DNA of 64,000 nt from an uncultured Flavobacteriaceae bacterium (GTDB lineage: Bacteria > Bacteroidota > Bacteroidia > Flavobacteriales > Flavobacteriaceae). Each line of letters begins with the position of its first letter. The stretch's first letter is position 1. Where the stretch lies: the NCBI GenBank assembly GCA_947500575.1, contig CANMSI010000002.1:372001-436000 (forward strand), in the 5' to 3' direction. Shown here one piece after another: positions 35,985-43,222 of the stretch. Under the pieces are notes generated by a model. That model worked only from the letters and a program-made list of their open reading frames with translations. It had not been told where the DNA came from and did not search any database. Both the position numbers and the translations under genes were made by a program.

Positions 35985-36136
35985 GTATGATTGTTTTATG
36001 ATAATGTAAGGTATCTACAAACAAAATACGAAATTGGTTTTTAGTGTAAATAATTTTGGAACAGGAACGAACGTCAAGAAAATGTACCCAAAGTACATTT
36101 TTAGCGATGAAGCCAGCTGGCGTGGTGGCGCTCATT

Positions 36137-36314
36137 CGCTATATTTTAGGAAACATTGTACTAATCAAGATTCCTTTGAAATCCATTGTGTTTTTGAAAC
36201 TCTTTAGAAACTGTATTACTAAACCCCTAAAATATGGACGCTCATTTCTCCTATTTGTTTTAACCAAAATTTTATGAGGCCAGGTTTAGCATCAAGATTC
36301 TATTTTACATAATA
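36137..36314. repeat. dispersed intergenic repeat, part B, copy 2
   Basis: Related to 25952-26150 over its length and ends with the boundary motif TCTATTTTACATAATAT directly after the DUF2779 stop codon. It lies upstream of the 87-residue gene. Confidence 0.75.
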
Positions 36315-38279
36315 TTAGTAATTAATAGATTCCCTAAAAAACTCATATATCATTACCATTGCTAATGTATCTAACTCACAATACATTAATAATGCTTTTC
36401 TTATTTCTAGTCTTTCTGCATCATTCATTTCTTGAAATTGTAATTTTGAATATGCAATTAATGCAGCTCCACCATTGTCTATTCCTTCTAAATCTGACAT
36501 TAAACTATCTAATTCATCTTCACTCCAATCATCGAATAATTGTGGTAAACTTTTATATGGACTTATAATTTTATCATTTTCATCAAATTCAATAAATACT
36601 TTATACTCATCAAAATTTAAACTGGATAAAGAAATCTCTTTTATAGATTTTGAATATTTATTTTTTAAATATTTACTACGATTCAAAACTGCTGGTAACA
36701 CTGCCTTAATAGAGTTAGAACCTTTCGTTTGAGGGTCATAATAGTATAGCTTAACCATTTCACATAAATCTATCATATCTCTATCTCCAACCCAGGAAAT
36801 AGCACTTTCTTTTTTTGAATGGCTAATAGATTGTATAAACTCAATTAATTCTTCTTTGTCCTTTTCATTTGAAGATATTAATTGTTCATGGATAGCATTA
36901 AGAATAGTGTTTTCGTGATAAGAATATTTAAATATGCTTCCATCATCCAAGGACAAGGATTTTTTTAAGTTTCTTAAAAAATCAAAGTTCGGAAAACTAC
37001 CAGCTTCAGAGTTAATATATTCAGTTTCGTGAGAAATAGAACCATCTTCTAAAACTTTATGATGTGAAAATTGAAATGCAATTTGCTCATAAGGTTTTTT
37101 TCCTTTATTAAATGGTATTGCCACTGTTGAAGTTTCAAAATCAATGAAGTGTAATGGAAATTTCCAACTACTCATTTCTAATTTCAATCCATCAATATCA
37201 ATATAAGGTGTATTATCGTTTTCTTTAACTTTACTTATTTGTAACCACTGCCTTTCTGATAATGATAGTCCATTAGGTTTTGGTACAATTGTTATTTCAT
37301 CTTCAGTTATATCCTTCATTAAATATATTCCTTCTTCAATCAATCTGGATGCAGGTTTAAAATTACCTACTTCATAAACTTTAGGCTCATTAGTAATTAT
37401 TTGTTTAGATGCATTTAATTGTTTTGTCCAACATTCAATATAACCACTATTTAAATTGTCATTATAAATTGTGTAGAATTCACAGTTTTTACATTTTACA
37501 TTGACTGGAGAATTTATTTTTATATCCTTTGAATAATACTCCGTAAATAGAGAAATAGCCTCTATAAAGGATAATGACTCATCATATTTAAAGACTCCAT
37601 ACTTAATATTTGAAATAATTGTTTCAACTGGTACTTTAGCTAAAATAGACTCTCCAATATCATCTTTAGTAGTTCCTTCTTCAACAATTATTCCTGTACG
37701 GTTATTCGATTTAGATGTTATCTTAAATTTTTGATTTAAGCCATCTTCACTAGCTGTTTTACTTTTATCTATTAGTAATAGAAAAGGTTTAATTGTCCAA
37801 TTTGAAAAGGCATTTTCCATTACATAATTTTGAAAAGCAATATCAAATAAATACGCTTTCCATTCACTTCGAAGTCCTCCCCTTTTCCCTAAAATCGAAT
37901 ATTCATCATTGGAATTTATGGATTTAGCTTTAACTTCAATTAACTCTATAGAATTACCTTTTTTTACTAAAATATCAACTCTAATAAAACAATTATTGTA
38001 CAAAAAAGCAGGTTCATAAATAATGACATTTTCTTGCTTTAGCAATTCATTGGTTTTCTCTACTAATAAATCATAATCCCATGGATTACCATCAACAAGC
38101 GTACCTCCATCATATTCTAATCTTGCTAACTCCTCGACCTGAAAACCGCCTTGTGCTAATGCTTCTAGAAAATCATCTTCCTTCTTTTGGTTAGCGTATT
38201 CCTTTTTATTCGTATAATAAAGTTTTGTTGGACATTCCAACCCTAATTTAAATCTTGATTTTGTTAAATATCTTTTCAT
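36315..38279 (-). CDS. DUF2779 protein: Cas4-like nuclease plus DEDD exonuclease-like domain
   Basis: A 654-residue protein. The N-terminus (SRFKLGLECPTKLYY) and the strand pair NCFIRVDILVKKGNSIELIEVKAK form a PD-(D/E)XK, Cas4/RecB-type nuclease core. A cysteine cluster (VKCKNCEFYTIYN and later EC) could hold an Fe-S cluster. The C-terminal half matches DUF2779, an RNase H-like 3'-5' exonuclease fold with FIDFETSTVAIP, FKYSYHENTIL and MYCELDTLAMV. It probably acts on nucleic acid. It follows the RT pair on the same strand, separated by an RNA candidate and terminator. A defence role is inferred. Confidence 0.8.
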   Translation of the reverse strand: MKRYLTKSRFKLGLECPTKLYYTNKKEYANQKKEDDFLEALAQGGFQVEELARLEYDGGTLVDGNPWDYDLLVEKTNELLKQENVIIYEPAFLYNNCFIRVDILVKKGNSIELIEVKAKSINSNDEYSILGKRGGLRSEWKAYLFDIAFQNYVMENAFSNWTIKPFLLLIDKSKTASEDGLNQKFKITSKSNNRTGIIVEEGTTKDDIGESILAKVPVETIISNIKYGVFKYDESLSFIEAISLFTEYYSKDIKINSPVNVKCKNCEFYTIYNDNLNSGYIECWTKQLNASKQIITNEPKVYEVGNFKPASRLIEEGIYLMKDITEDEITIVPKPNGLSLSERQWLQISKVKENDNTPYIDIDGLKLEMSSWKFPLHFIDFETSTVAIPFNKGKKPYEQIAFQFSHHKVLEDGSISHETEYINSEAGSFPNFDFLRNLKKSLSLDDGSIFKYSYHENTILNAIHEQLISSNEKDKEELIEFIQSISHSKKESAISWVGDRDMIDLCEMVKLYYYDPQTKGSNSIKAVLPAVLNRSKYLKNKYSKSIKEISLSSLNFDEYKVFIEFDENDKIISPYKSLPQLFDDWSEDELDSLMSDLEGIDNGGAALIAYSKLQFQEMNDAERLEIRKALLMYCELDTLAMVMIYEFFRESINY

Positions 38280-38283
38280 TAAA

Positions 38284-38404
38284 ATGAATAAAAAAAGTTA
38301 GTCCCAGAAAAAACTAACTTTGTGATTGTCTTTTTACGGACATATTAGAACGCTTGTGTGTGGCAATCGAAATTGCAAAATTTATCTGGTGCGTCCTTTT
38401 ATTA
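38284..38404 (-). ncRNA. structured RNA candidate of the DRT3-like system
   Basis: The 120 bases between the second RT and DUF2779 fold well on the minus strand. An outer GGAC/GUCC pairing encloses a GCAAU-UUCG-AUUGC hairpin (38363-38376), directly followed by an exposed CACACAC (38356-38362). The 3' end is a hairpin (AAAGUUAGU/ACUAACUUU) with a U run, a terminator at 38290-38321. DRT3 systems are known to encode an ncRNA; an AC-repeat template for poly(GT) synthesis has been reported for them as I recall. The boundaries are estimates, and the 5' end may lie inside the RT gene. Confidence 0.6.
38290..38321 (-). terminator. rho-independent terminator ending the RT/ncRNA transcript
   Basis: AAAGTTAGT and ACTAACTTT (minus strand) form a nine-base stem with a ten-base loop, followed by about seven Ts. 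It sits just before the DUF2779 start, so that gene likely needs its own promoter or readthrough. Confidence 0.85.
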
Positions 38405-40627
38405 TTAAGAGTATGGCTCTAATGAGCTTTTAGCATTCATTTCTTCTACTAAATTAAAATTATCCCATTTTGTAAACCAATACTTTTGTTTTACAACAAA
38501 TTTAATGAATACTTCCTGTTCTGTTTTAATATCAAAAAGTTCTAATATCTGTATTTTAAAATCTTCTTTTAGATATGGACAAGATATTAAATCAAAAAAC
38601 AAAAGTACCAATTCTGAATGTTTAGTTCTTTTATTTTCTTCAATACCTTTTATTTTAGCAATTATTCCTTTTTCCACTGCCTCCTTTAGTATAGAATACT
38701 GCTTAATATCCTTGAAATAGAATAATAAAACAGTTATTACAAAATAGTTGATGCTATTTTTAAATTCATAACCTTTACTACCATCATCTTTTTCAATTGT
38801 ATTTAGGTTCAGGTATTTAACTAACTGTTGTTTGGTTAATCTATATTCTTTGCCCAGTTCTTTTAATACAATCAAAAGATATAATGTCTCTATTTGCAAA
38901 TGTTCATCAATTTTACTTTTATCAAGTATCAATATTATTTCATCCAATATTTTTTTGAACACAATCTCTTGATTCAATTTATTAAATTGATTATTCAAAG
39001 CATAGGTCATACCTCCCACTGGTTCATCAAACTGAAATTTATATCTTTTTCTGAATGATTTAATGATAAAAGATAGAATGCTAACTAATTTAATAGTAGA
39101 ATTAACTTTTGGAGAAACTCCATAAAGGAAAAAGACAAAATCAAGCATTTCTACAATATATTTTGTAAAATTTGCTTCCTGCTTTGTTAATTTTTTTTCT
39201 TCCTCTTTAGTCAGTAATCCTTTAAATTTATCTTTGTCTAGTCTTTTTTTATGCTCCTCATACTTCTTGATATTACGCAACAAACTACTCCTGAAAATGG
39301 CTAAAGTGTAGTTCATAATATCTTTATAAGCAACATTTGAAACTACTACAATAGTTTTAAATTCAGTAATTAACTTGTTTGAATCACATCTAATATCAAC
39401 ATCACTTACCAATACTTTTTTTCTAGGAATAAAATCTTCATCACCTATATGTTCTTCAGGAATTTCTTTGTCTTCCTTATCACTTTCTTTTAAAATTTTA
39501 AATTTTATTCCTTCCTTTAAAAGATTAATAATTTTGTTTTTCGCTATAGTTATTTCCGTAATCAACGGTTTTTCATATTGCAAGGTTTTTGAGTTATTTA
39601 GTGATAACTTATATTCCTTCAACATGATTTTATAATTATCTAAAATTTCGTTCTTTGTTCTTTCATTGTTGTAAAAAACAAAAAAATCATCAACATATCG
39701 ATAAATTTCATAATCGACTTTATGATAAATACCTTTATCTCGTAATATTTGTTCAATTTTATTGTCAATACTTTGCAATATAAGCTCTGCAAAGATTCTT
39801 GAAAATTCAGGGCCAATAATTATTCCATTAGTCTCTCCATAGTTTGTATTTTGCATAAATTTGTCAAACTGTCCAGCAAATGTTTTGGAATCGTAATATT
39901 CCTTTACAAACTCTTTATTTGCAATAGCCCAAGAAAGTGAATGAGTATAGAGGCTATCGAAGCATTTAGCTATATCAAACTTAATCATTTTATCATACTT
40001 TTTTTCAGCACGATGATATGCATAATGTTCATAGAATTTATAAATATTTGAAAACCTCTTGTATGTAAAAAATGTTTTCAAGCTTTTGTATTCTTTCCCA
40101 CTTTCCTCTATAAAATCGTCTTCATCTCCTTTATTCTGAACATATGTATTGTCATTTGAAAAAACAAATTTTGCTATATTATCAGGCTTTCTTATTGAGT
40201 AAGGACTGACTTTAGAGTAATAAAGAATTAACTCTTTATATCTTTCATAAAATGAAATCAACTCTATTTGACTTTTAGGATGTGGTATTGCTAAATCTCT
40301 AAAATCTTTTTCTTTATGAGTTATTTTATAATTGAAAGCAATTTTTCTAAACTCTTTCTTTCTAGAATTTAGTTTCCGTTTATTTTTTTCAGAATGCCCA
40401 TTAGCATCAAAGAGTATCTTTACTACTTTCTGTAAACTGTTCTCATCTTTACAGTCAATCCAGTGGAAAGAATTATCCTCAAAATCAAATTTCACTTTAT
40501 GGTTAATCAAAAACTCATAAAAATGCCTATTTGAAAATATAATTGGTGTTTCATATGGAAGTACATCACTTAAAATCGCTCTTTCAATAGCGTATTTGAT
40601 TGGTAATTTTAATTTACTTTTCTTCAT
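38405..40627 (-). CDS. drt3b: reverse transcriptase, Drt3b/UG8-like
   Basis: A 740-residue protein with a reverse-transcriptase core at about residues 205-340. Motif A is MIKFDIAKCFDSLYTHS (D218), motif B GETNGIIIGPEFSRIFAE, and motif C YRYVDDFFVFY (YVDD at 311-314), so the catalytic aspartates are present. A C-terminal helical region of about 350 residues has no named domain; there is no maturase, endonuclease or integrase domain. Its start is one base after the stop of the other RT gene. Two adjacent RTs, short then long, fit defence-associated RT type 3. The UG8 assignment is inferred from order and size. Confidence 0.7.
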   Translation of the reverse strand: MKKSKLKLPIKYAIERAILSDVLPYETPIIFSNRHFYEFLINHKVKFDFEDNSFHWIDCKDENSLQKVVKILFDANGHSEKNKRKLNSRKKEFRKIAFNYKITHKEKDFRDLAIPHPKSQIELISFYERYKELILYYSKVSPYSIRKPDNIAKFVFSNDNTYVQNKGDEDDFIEESGKEYKSLKTFFTYKRFSNIYKFYEHYAYHRAEKKYDKMIKFDIAKCFDSLYTHSLSWAIANKEFVKEYYDSKTFAGQFDKFMQNTNYGETNGIIIGPEFSRIFAELILQSIDNKIEQILRDKGIYHKVDYEIYRYVDDFFVFYNNERTKNEILDNYKIMLKEYKLSLNNSKTLQYEKPLITEITIAKNKIINLLKEGIKFKILKESDKEDKEIPEEHIGDEDFIPRKKVLVSDVDIRCDSNKLITEFKTIVVVSNVAYKDIMNYTLAIFRSSLLRNIKKYEEHKKRLDKDKFKGLLTKEEEKKLTKQEANFTKYIVEMLDFVFFLYGVSPKVNSTIKLVSILSFIIKSFRKRYKFQFDEPVGGMTYALNNQFNKLNQEIVFKKILDEIILILDKSKIDEHLQIETLYLLIVLKELGKEYRLTKQQLVKYLNLNTIEKDDGSKGYEFKNSINYFVITVLLFYFKDIKQYSILKEAVEKGIIAKIKGIEENKRTKHSELVLLFFDLISCPYLKEDFKIQILELFDIKTEQEVFIKFVVKQKYWFTKWDNFNLVEEMNAKSSLEPYS

Positions 40628-40628
40628 T

Positions 40629-42062
40629 CTATTTCCAAATTGAAATTACTCGTTCAAAATTATTATCTAACTTCTTTAGCTCTTTTAATGGAGCTGGTCT
40701 TAAGTCTGCAATATTCTTCCGTTTGGAATTAATATTAAAAAAAGATTTGTTTTTGAAACCTTCCTTAAAACTATAACTCTTGAGTTTTAAATTTAATTTT
40801 GGATATTCAGCAATAGGTAATTTTTCATCAATTACTCTTATTAATTCATTGTCTAGGAAATCCAAATCTGAACAATCGTTTTCAATTAAACTATTAGAAT
40901 AGTATATTCCAACCAATCCTTTTTTCGGTTTGTGCAAACGTGTATTTTTTGTTAGATAATTCATTCTGTGAATCAATAATTTTGAAGCTTCATTTTGAGA
41001 AAACTCTTTTTGAATTAAGTATGTGTTTATTGTCTTTTCTATTCGTTGCACATATTTATTCTTTTTGTTTTGAGAGAGTGAAGTTTCTAAATATTTTCTA
41101 TTCTCAATTTTAAAAATGTAACCCAAGAATACAATCTCGAACAAATCATTTTTCCTTGTGTCAATCATTTTTGTCTTATCTGGACTCTCATTTAAAGTCA
41201 ATCCATATTGTTCAACAATTTCTTTTACTTGTGTTAAATAATCTGCTTCAGAAACTTCCCAATTAGGCACATAAACAATTACAATGTCATCAACATATCT
41301 TGCATAATAACTAACGTTTCTTATTCTTTTAATTTTATTATCAACTTCTCGCATAAATAGCTCTGCTAAATAGGCACTTATTCCTGCGCCTCTTGGTATA
41401 CCTCTTCTCTCCTCTTTAGGTAAACCCAATTGGTCAGTAATTTCATTGTAACTATAAAGCAGACTGTTTATTAAGGTTTTAGATTTAGGGCTTAACAATT
41501 GGTTATTGTTTATCATACCTAACAATTTCTTTTGTAGAACACTTTCGTAAAAGCCTCTTATATCTGTTCTTAATAAGATTTTTGGATAATCATCTTTTAA
41601 CAAACTTTGTAGTTGTTTAGAAATTAAATATCTATTTCCTTGTTTAACTTTAAAAGTTCGATTTATGTTAAACTGTAGTTGTTTCATAGCAAAATATGAA
41701 GATGCATCCTTCCCAATTGGATAAACATTCTTGCCACTTGCTTCGTGTAGGAATTTAGAAAACACAAACTTAAATCCTTTACTATTTACATTTTCGACAT
41801 ATTCTTGTAAACTAATTTCTAATTCATTTTTTTTACTCTCTTCTATAACTTTCTTTTCTTCATAGAGTTTTAATAGATGTTCGTCGTCTTTTTCTTTATC
41901 TCCAGTACTTTTGTAAATTTTAATAATATTTCTTTGCTTCTTTAATTCATTAGAAAGTATGTGGAATTTATCAGAATAATACTCTTTTTCAAAGTTTCCT
42001 TTGCGGTTTTCTATTTCAAATATTTTATTAAAGTTTTCTAACGAGAAAGATTGATTGAGCAT
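40629..42062 (-). CDS. drt3a: reverse transcriptase, Drt3a/UG3-like
   Basis: A 477-residue reverse transcriptase. The N-terminal helical part of about 95 residues is Lys/Glu-rich. Motif A is LLRTDIRGFYESV (D167), motif B RRGIPRGAGISAYLAELFM, and motif C YARYVDDIVIVYV (YVDD at 256-259). A thumb-like basic C-terminus follows. It is first in the operon with the larger RT. It is not a retron-type RT by layout, since no msr-msd element lies in front. The name rests on the tandem arrangement and is not confirmed by comparison. Confidence 0.7.
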   Translation of the reverse strand: MLNQSFSLENFNKIFEIENRKGNFEKEYYSDKFHILSNELKKQRNIIKIYKSTGDKEKDDEHLLKLYEEKKVIEESKKNELEISLQEYVENVNSKGFKFVFSKFLHEASGKNVYPIGKDASSYFAMKQLQFNINRTFKVKQGNRYLISKQLQSLLKDDYPKILLRTDIRGFYESVLQKKLLGMINNNQLLSPKSKTLINSLLYSYNEITDQLGLPKEERRGIPRGAGISAYLAELFMREVDNKIKRIRNVSYYARYVDDIVIVYVPNWEVSEADYLTQVKEIVEQYGLTLNESPDKTKMIDTRKNDLFEIVFLGYIFKIENRKYLETSLSQNKKNKYVQRIEKTINTYLIQKEFSQNEASKLLIHRMNYLTKNTRLHKPKKGLVGIYYSNSLIENDCSDLDFLDNELIRVIDEKLPIAEYPKLNLKLKSYSFKEGFKNKSFFNINSKRKNIADLRPAPLKELKKLDNNFERVISIWK

Positions 42063-42228
42063 ATATGTTTTACTTAAATTATGGATAAAAAACTGTCTAT
42101 TCTAAATAGAAATATCTAGTTAGAAGCAAGCTAATTAATCTTACAAAGGGAGAGTTTGAATATAATGAATTTTGTAGGAATATTATTGAGGGAAAACCGT
42201 AAAAATTTGAGCGTAAGCTTATTTAAAT

Positions 42229-42266
42229 CCATTCCACACACATTACCCTCCCTCCTGCCGTCGGTC
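42229..42266. repeat. CCATTCC-type direct repeat, right copy
   Basis: CCATTCCACACACATT with a C/T-rich run and GCCGTCGG, related to 35186-35228. It lies upstream of the first RT gene and could mark the edge of an inserted islet. Confidence 0.55.
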
Positions 42267-42310
42267 AGTTAATAAGTGTTACTTATATAATTATTATTGA
42301 GATAAGGAAA

Positions 42311-42769
42311 CTAATTATCATGCTTGTTTTCCTTAGTATAATGTTGTGGCCAAAGAAAATATCCGCACACAGTTCCAATCACTAAAAATAGTATGTGCAT
42401 TTCTAGATTAAGAGTTTCTCCCTCAGTAGGAATCTCAACAAAAAAACCAAGACATTGAATAATAACTGAAATTAAAATGAGCAATAGAATCGCAATTCCT
42501 TCTGGAACGGTTTTCGCGGACTTTTTTCGTGCCAAAAACAAATGTCCCGACATTACTCCCCAAATCCATGTAAGAACAAAATATCTATCCCAAACAGCAT
42601 TTGTATGGATAACCTCGCTAATCGTATCAGTGTATGCATAAAGATAGATATCATAGAGTATTAAACCGATAACTGTTACAATGACTACGATTTGAGTTAA
42701 TTGTACCCCTTTTGAGTTAATAATATCTCTAATTTTTTCTTGTCGAGTGATATGTTCTTTTTGACTCAT
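42311..42769 (-). CDS. four-helix membrane protein, paralogue 1
   Basis: A 152-residue protein with four hydrophobic segments. It is paralogous to the next gene upstream: LILYDIYLYAYTD here and LIVFDIYLYFDKV there, LTWIWGVMSGHLFLA and IPYLWGVLAGHFFLG, then TVCGYFLWPQHY and AVIGHFFWSIKY. The conserved W-GV-GH-FL motif after helix 2 is the clearest landmark. No family is recognised. It is last in a three-gene operon. Confidence 0.7.
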   Translation of the reverse strand: MSQKEHITRQEKIRDIINSKGVQLTQIVVIVTVIGLILYDIYLYAYTDTISEVIHTNAVWDRYFVLTWIWGVMSGHLFLARKKSAKTVPEGIAILLLILISVIIQCLGFFVEIPTEGETLNLEMHILFLVIGTVCGYFLWPQHYTKENKHDN

Positions 42770-42778
42770 AGTTTAGGT

Positions 42779-43222
42779 TTATTGAATTTCAAAATATTTG
42801 ATTGACCAGAAAAAATGCCCAATAACTGCTCCAAAGACAAGTAGGGTGGCCTGAATATAGGGTCTCTTCTTAGATTTTTCATTTAGAACACCTTGTCGTT
42901 TTAAAATGAAGGTTATTATCCAAATAATGATTGCCAAACCAATTACAATTGCTAAACTGTAGAGGTTACTTGCTTTATCATTTCCAAAAGGAGATTTTAT
43001 CGTTCCCAAGAAGAAATGTCCAGCCAAGACACCCCAGAGGTATGGGATAAAGAAAAACTTATTATTGTAGACCCAGCGATGCAGAATATTGCTAATCGTA
43101 TTCCCATCAACTTTATCGAAGTACAAATAAATATCAAATACAATAAGTAAGCCAGCAACCCAAAGTAAAACAACTTCTACATTTTCTTGATTGAAAATAG
43201 CTTCCAAGGTAAGTAAGACCAT
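42779..43222 (-). CDS. four-helix membrane protein, paralogue 2
   Basis: A 147-residue paralogue of the preceding entry, nine bases away from it. It has four hydrophobic segments, the DIYLY motif after helix 1 and WGVLAGHFFLG after helix 2. The two may form a heteromer. The gene upstream, 62 bases away, encodes an exported coiled-coil/barrel protein. The function is unknown. Confidence 0.7.
   Translation of the reverse strand: MVLLTLEAIFNQENVEVVLLWVAGLLIVFDIYLYFDKVDGNTISNILHRWVYNNKFFFIPYLWGVLAGHFFLGTIKSPFGNDKASNLYSLAIVIGLAIIIWIITFILKRQGVLNEKSKKRPYIQATLLVFGAVIGHFFWSIKYFEIQ

Follow-up and report, generated by a model that had tools for sequence, protein, structure and literature searches.

A candidate DRT3 template RNA with a predicted terminator-loop pseudoknot, followed by a DUF2779 nuclease gene, in an uncultured Flavobacteriaceae bacterium

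Positions 38284–38404 of the window (the whole stretch of DNA analysed, 64 kb from an uncultured Flavobacteriaceae bacterium) lie behind two reverse transcriptase (RT) genes and carry the repeat CACACAC on the minus strand. The initial annotation proposed that a structured RNA encoded here serves as template of the RT pair, and the locus raises the question of whether this is so, and for which of the two enzymes. On the minus strand, the gene order is drt3a, drt3b, an inferred structured RNA of ~110 nt and a DUF2779 gene; one base separates drt3a from drt3b, and the gap between drt3b and the DUF2779 gene is 125 nt. We assign a probability of about 0.92 to the reading that 38290–38404 (minus strand) encodes the noncoding RNA of a DRT3 anti-phage system acting by the mechanism proposed below. 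The features are collected in Table 1.

Table 1. Features of the DRT3 locus, in window positions
Feature	Position	Strand	Properties
drt3a	40629..42062	-	477 aa, UG3-type reverse transcriptase, YVDD present
drt3b	38405..40627	-	740 aa, UG8-type reverse transcriptase, YVDD 311-314
DRT3 template RNA (predicted)	38290..38404	-	ends inferred; fold z -2.51; ACACAC in 29/29 homologous gaps
P1 5′ strand AGGACGC	38391..38397	-	pairs with 38347-38353; MFE, compensatory changes, own-versus-foreign partner test 1/20000
Pseudoknot 5′ strand CCAGA	38385..38389	-	predicted to pair with 38304-38308; not best partner in unconstrained test
P2 hairpin GCAAU-UUCG-AUUGC	38363..38376	-	directly 5′ of template; possible 5′ template boundary; sequence and MFE
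CACACAC, putative poly(GT) template	38356..38362	-	ACACAC in 29/29 loci, top hexamer
P1 3′ strand GCGUUCU	38347..38353	-	basis as for P1 5′ strand
P3 small hairpin UGUC/GACA	38327..38342	-	MFE only
P4 terminator-like hairpin	38294..38321	-	loop 38303-38312; UCUGG 38304-38308 is the pseudoknot 3′ strand
DUF2779 gene	36315..38279	-	654 aa; lineage-specific neighbour, putative role

Both RT genes were identified by profile searches. Drt3a matched the NCBIfam equivalog NF041747 (332 bits, cut-off 200; 5.3e-99) and Drt3b matched NF041748 (694 bits, cut-off 350; 2.8e-208), and the top PADLOC matches were Drt3a (at 1.8e-96) and Drt3b, respectively. Drt3a is related to the solved Drt3a structure 9z6y chain A, and Drt3b to the solved chains 26cz_A and 9z6y_H; the genome from which the window comes contains one Drt3b match. 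In residue columns, E26, R110, D218, F223, R277 and YVDD 311–314 of Drt3b correspond to E22, R71, D182, F187, R241 and YVDD 276–279 of E. coli DRT3b, and Y739, the second-last residue, corresponds to Y666 of 667, matched by position and profile end rather than by pairwise alignment. The columns comprise 30 aligned rows, in which L022 and L056 each count and gaps in L004, L007 and L022, copies that are incomplete or split, are disregarded. The exceptions at position 26 are R (L021) and D (L025), and that at position 312 is I (L025); L007 has A aligned at 739, yet its own last residue is Y. Adjacent Drt3a (UG3) and Drt3b (UG8) genes are thus found together with the gating residues E26 and R277, with R110 and with the priming residue Y739. 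Judged by sequence, the RT pair of the window is DRT3.

Two small hydrophobic ORFs, membrane proteins by eye, are located 248 nt upstream of drt3a (42311–42769 and 42779–43222, minus strand). Neither Pfam nor the flanking ORFs of loci L002 and L003 gave a match to them. DRT3 is said, in the portion of PMC12632851 available, to co-occur with membrane proteins.

The minimum-energy (MFE) fold of the 121-nt stretch contains P1 (AGGACGC/GCGUUCU), P2, P3 and P4, of which P4 is the longest helix, and is better than the folds of 196 of 200 dinucleotide shuffles (4/200 were as good; z −2.51). A perfect 5-bp UUCG hairpin (GCAAU-UUCG-AUUGC, 38376..38363) does directly touch CACACAC (38362..38356) on the minus strand, as had been noticed from the letters. 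The GGAC/GUCC pairing that was supposed to enclose both is not part of the MFE fold, in which GUCC sits in a separate small hairpin and the closing helix is P1 (38397..38391 with 38353..38347). We rejected the GGAC/GUCC enclosure, which would compete with P1 and P3; the helix that covaries is P1. Of the proposed terminator, a terminator-like hairpin with a T run after it is present (P4, AAAGUUAGU...ACUAACUUU, starting at 38321 on the minus strand), while a strict terminator scan of 36000–42500 gave no match (0 found, 1.8 expected) and so did not flag P4. A promoter scan was uninformative, since the number found (38) was close to that expected (38.9). Rfam gave no match in the window at the gathering threshold, and the minus strand of the 64 kb contains CACACAC four times. 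One feature that the initial annotation did not contain is a predicted pseudoknot between bases just past the 5′ strand of P1 and the loop of P4.

Homologous loci were gathered from several sources. Drt3b relatives on GTDB contigs provided seven loci. Whole-genome samples contained Drt3b relatives (E 1e-40 or better) in 10/397 genomes of the family, 5/395 of the phylum and 6/395 of the class, these samples overlapping and including the window's genome. Seven loci were taken from 206 plasmid records with a Drt3b match, and two from the nine E. coli genomes, out of 5426, in which the plasmid copy has a near relative. Removal of duplicates left 29 distinct loci, that of the window included. Viral contigs yielded no relative. 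Two of the gathered copies are irregular. In a Paludibacter MAG (L007, 7305–7416), drt3b is split in two ORFs with ~37 residues unmatched, which indicates a broken copy or an assembly fault. On plasmid CP083496.1 (L022, 3744–3860), drt3b is annotated as two ORFs, and the L022 query stretch exceeds the otherwise near-identical chromosomal copies by one base.

ACACAC is present 3′ of drt3b in all 29 distinct loci, with its start 29 to 221 nt past the drt3b stop and with Drt3b identity as low as 25%. In an unsupervised count it was the only hexamer common to all 29 gaps; apart from the overlapping CACACA, the next best was found in 18/29. The background for ACACAC was 97 of 3604 tiles of 235 nt across all sequence gathered, with gaps and duplicates counted. 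The window and L004 share one type of P1, L002 and L003 another, and the drt3b genes group likewise; by these groupings, the RNA follows the RTs in descent.

The fold was described by a pattern in which P1 surrounds the template and a pseudoknot connects a 5′ strand, 0–3 nt past the 5′ strand of P1, with a 3′ strand in the loop of the downstream hairpin P4, a constraint taken partly from the same loci after their folds had been seen. For 13 of 29 loci (the window, L002–L005, L007, L008, L012–L014, L018, L019 and L058, several of them closely related), none of 200 dinucleotide shuffles scored as high with this descriptor; the other 16 loci did not pass this mark. L006 shares the anatomy, yet 16/200 shuffles were as good. 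The corresponding numbers were 2/200 for L025, 5/200 for each of L021, L024 and L027, 9/200 for L015, and 18 to 124/200 for L020, L057, L056, L023, L060, L016 and L028; for the two E. coli loci they were 36 and 24/200. The descriptor gave no match in L017, L026 and L059. Since 16/29 loci, E. coli included, fail to beat all shuffles, support for the exact fold extends only to a subset of Bacteroidota. When all sequence gathered was scanned on both strands, 83 distinct (AC)3+ sites were found; the 15 best scores and all 14 scores of at least 44 belonged to drt3b gaps, the remaining drt3b gaps scoring no better than background.

Strand swaps were performed with 13 representatives. The observed sum was reached in 1/20000 permutations for P1 and in 46/20000 for a looser, unconstrained pseudoknot, for which the own partner came first in four of 13 representatives and that of the window ranked 6th of 13; the descriptor with its constraint performed better. 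Between two and five pair types were found per counted position in 14 loci; these counts were scripted from helices read off individual folds and picked because they pair, with the strand swap, the shuffles and the (AC)3+ site ranking as controls. Covariation in P1 is seen, for example, as AGGACGC/GCGUUCU, AGGAUGC/GCAUCCU, AUUAUGC/GCAUAGU, AUACCGU/ACGGUGU and AGAAUAAAC/GUUUAUUCU; in L002 and L003, (G/A)GGAUGC/GCAUCCU represents a compensatory change that removes an internal G-U pair. Examples for the pseudoknot are CCAGA/UCUGG, CCGUC/GACGG, CUGAC/GUCAG, CGCUC/GAGCG, ACCAAUCA/UGAUUGGU, AAUCCUC/GAGGAUU, AAUCUUC/GGAGAUU and AAUCCCC/GGGGAUU. Covarying P1, pseudoknot and P4 were observed in a subset of loci. 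In the fold of E. coli L056, UCAGGC pairs with GCCUGA, with the strands at places matching the pseudoknot; this is only suggestive of a counterpart in the predicted E. coli fold. Two MAFFT alignments misplaced P1 and P4 between groups. The initial annotation had named covariation and conservation of the AC repeat in homologues as its test, and the proposal survives it, with the repeat in 29/29 loci and compensatory changes in the enclosing helix.

The hairpin beside the template behaved differently from the parts that are kept. The P2 stem is retained in L002–L004, with the UUCG loop in L004 and UUUAU in L002 and L003. A candidate hairpin beside the template was found in 21/29 loci, few of these clearly above plain shuffles (13/300 were as good as P2 of the window), and none in 8/29. 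A universal UUCG hairpin was rejected on the grounds of the different loop in L002/L003 and the eight loci that have no hairpin. In the Bacteroidota set P1, pseudoknot, terminator and template are kept while the template-side hairpin comes and goes; the compact covarying fold thus allows the kept parts to be told from the variable one.

One can ask whether the main function of the gap is to terminate transcription and to provide a leader for the DUF2779 gene, with CACACAC incidental. At most 14 nt separate the end of P4 and its T run from the start codon of DUF2779, and no helix of the MFE fold is longer than P4. However, ACACAC is found in 29/29 gaps and DUF2779 behind only four of them, and P1 wraps the AC repeat and covaries, so that we give this reading hardly any credence. 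Instead, 38290–38404 very probably encodes a small folded template RNA of DRT3, an assignment about as firm as sequence alone allows.

E. coli DRT3, described by Wang et al. 2026 (PMC13174585) and by Deng et al. 2026, the latter through the reviews PMC13314766 and PMC13213688 (all of these available in part), shares with the window the order drt3a-drt3b, an RNA 3′ of drt3b and ACACAC in a loop beside a stem-loop, as well as the E/R gating residues, the C-terminal priming tyrosine and YVDD. The location of the RNA 3′ of the larger RT, with an AC repeat, as pointed out in the initial annotation, agrees with the E. coli arrangement reported in the accessible text (PMC13174585), where ACACAC lies in a loop downstream of drt3b; in the window, a structured noncoding RNA 3′ of drt3b with ACACAC in the loop is found in the sequence and predicted fold. 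The two differ in that the RNA of the window clade is predicted to be closed by P1 and the terminator-loop pseudoknot, in that Drt3b has 740 aa in the window and 667 in E. coli, in the DUF2779 gene that follows the RNA in the window clade, and in that the two E. coli loci fail to beat shuffles under the window-type descriptor. The locus is a new example of the recently described DRT3, with an extra nuclease gene, and extends the DRT3 template RNA from E. coli to a set of Bacteroidota. The terminator-loop pseudoknot, as indicated by covariation in a subset of loci, is a new addition. Our searches on these subjects, in the literature text accessible to them, found no description of a DRT3 pseudoknot or of a DRT3–DUF2779 link, and the word pseudoknot is absent from the text, as distinct from the figures, of Wang et al. 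in its accessible part (PMC13174585).

According to the same partially available source (PMC13174585), E. coli DRT3a copies ACACAC of the RNA encoded 3′ of drt3b into poly(TG), and mutation of ACACAC abolishes product and defence. E. coli DRT3b is reported there to synthesise poly(CA) starting at Y666, E22 and R241 serving as gates, after which the strands anneal, and RecBCD to keep DRT3 DNA below a toxic level, DRT3 being toxic without RecBCD. Since residues matching the reported ones are present, we infer the same mechanism here. The RNA would be made from the drt3 operon and would end at the P4 hairpin, with P1 and the pseudoknot holding CACACAC exposed inside a closed loop. Drt3a would bind the RNA and reverse-transcribe CACACAC into (TG)n; because the period is two bases, the cDNA could slip back and anneal anew, and poly(TG) would grow. 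The P2 hairpin lies immediately 5′ of the template and may halt Drt3a at that end. For Drt3b, Y739 would serve as primer and E26 and R277 as gates, and its poly(CA) would need no nucleic-acid template. Poly(TG) and poly(CA) would then anneal to repeat double-stranded DNA, whose build-up would abort infection. Gene identities, the position and sequence of the template and the conserved catalytic, gating and priming residues are observations on the locus itself; product, priming, complex and defence would be as in the published E. coli work.

The role of template for the RT pair therefore has to be narrowed. The pair is DRT3 and the RNA is where E. coli DRT3 has its RNA, but it should template Drt3a only, because the poly(CA) synthesis reported for Drt3b needs no nucleic-acid template (accessible text of PMC13174585). 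A review gives the RNA a scaffold role besides the template role (PMC13314766, seen in excerpt), and the RNA might accordingly scaffold the RTs in the window while the cDNA is not a GT repeat, or the copy is inactive. Against this, the sole hexamer conserved in all 29 gaps is ACACAC, YVDD is present in both RTs, and the gating and priming residues of Drt3b are intact; we regard it as quite improbable and retain the template reading.

The template also resembles that of DRT10, in whose noncoding RNA the template for repeat copying immediately follows a stem-loop that is proposed to fix its 5′ boundary (PMC12632851, partial text), and DRT3a is reported to be phylogenetically related to DRT10 enzymes (PMC13174585, likewise partial). 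A stem-loop 5′ of the template is found in the window, with the shuffle result and the eight loci lacking it given above. By analogy, P2 may act as a 5′ template boundary, one that is not universal among DRT3 RNAs. The window template is a fixed dinucleotide repeat, whereas that of DRT10 is a variable A-B-A′ motif, and DRT3 has a second RT where DRT10 has a SLATT protein. Telomerase RNA likewise has a short template beside a boundary element, a stem-loop or pseudoknot (PMC12632851, in the part available), which is a resemblance only.

The protein encoded behind the RNA matches Pfam PF11074 (9.7e-22). C16, D102, E115, K117, C263, C266, C283, D380, E382 and D637 are invariant in 21 sequences; D102, E115 and K117 are PD-(D/E)XK-like, and D380/E382 with Y633xxxD637 are of exonuclease type. 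Its structural model (mean pLDDT 90) aligned over residues 372–654 with exonuclease regions of family-B DNA polymerases (Z 12.4). No Foldseek match reached E 0.001; the best, at E 0.01–0.04, included HincII, Cas4, RecE and MGME1. As the VIA-align rows cover mainly 372–654, the N-terminal fold rests on invariant residues together with the weak Foldseek matches. From sequence features and model, the C-terminal domain is a DnaQ-like exonuclease, and the N-terminal domain is probably PD-(D/E)XK/Cas4-like. The four cysteines C16, C263, C266 and C283 are like those of the Cas4/AddB iron-sulphur nucleases. The protein has the DUF2779 domain, the exonuclease-type acidic residues and, by its invariant residues, a DUF83/PD-(D/E)XK-like part, which place it with the DUF2779 nucleases (RNase H-like clade F). 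A 2014 classification, consulted in part, lists DUF2779 among presumed 3′-5′ exonucleases and mentions a DUF83 domain with resemblance to PD-(D/E)XK nucleases (PMC3985635).

The DUF2779 gene starts 126–128 nt past the drt3b stop in the window, L002, L003 and L004, and in the window its start codon is 14 nt past P4. This linkage to DRT3, by position only, is a second new addition. Beyond the module, the only matches of L002 and L003 ORFs (20–60 kb compared) are to genes of 28–34% identity elsewhere in the window, and ORFs of L004, a contig that begins inside drt3b, match none in the window. By tblastn, no DUF2779 was seen in the other 25 of 29 DRT3 loci, some of which are covered for only 420–756 nt downstream. 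Relatives at E 1e-20 were present in 24/397 family genomes, four at 83–100% identity (DRT3-linked, the window's included) and 20 at 48–55%, one of the latter genomes also having a 64% fragment (L055). No Drt3a or Drt3b was found in 22 DUF2779 flanking loci, checked for ~1.5 kb to either side or as far as the contig reached. Differences at fourfold sites for DUF2779 and drt3b were 0.21 versus 0.53 between the window and L002, and 0.44 versus 0.27 between the window and L004, where the drt3b value rests on a 306-residue part of the L004 gene. The module is mosaic (36315–38279 versus 38405–42062, minus strand): among the three relatives, DUF2779 is closest to L002 and drt3b to L004.

Since the RNA follows drt3b and the history of DUF2779 differs, we take the RNA to belong to the RTs and DUF2779 to be a separately exchanged, consistently placed neighbour. 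It may instead be a full part of the system in the window clade, a product-clearing nuclease or effector rather than a passenger. Its place directly behind the RNA in four loci whose outer flanks differ argues for this, as do the restriction of relatives of at least 83% identity to these four of 397 family genomes, the mere 14 nt between P4 and the start codon, the nuclease-like residues and fold, and the toxicity reported for E. coli DRT3 without RecBCD (PMC13174585, partial text). We nevertheless find it somewhat doubtful, as no DUF2779 was seen in most DRT3 loci, more distant relatives occur in genomes whose checked flanks are without Drt3a/Drt3b, descent differs from that of drt3b, and the host genome has RecB-like proteins of its own, these being below the family cut-off.

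A regulatory link is conceivable. Transcripts started upstream would have to read through the terminator to reach DUF2779, so that RNA folding or Drt3a binding could set the amount of nuclease. In the Flavobacteriaceae clade, the terminator, as part of the tertiary fold of the RNA, would in this way set the level of a double nuclease that serves as guard or disposal enzyme for repeat DNA, a scheme we consider unlikely. If true, the double nuclease would do locally what RecBCD reportedly does for E. coli DRT3. The linked double nuclease makes survival under constant repeat-DNA synthesis testable outside E. coli. By eye, DUF2779 relatives away from DRT3 (L033–L054) often lie a few bases behind a same-strand ORF, like the last or second gene of varied operons.
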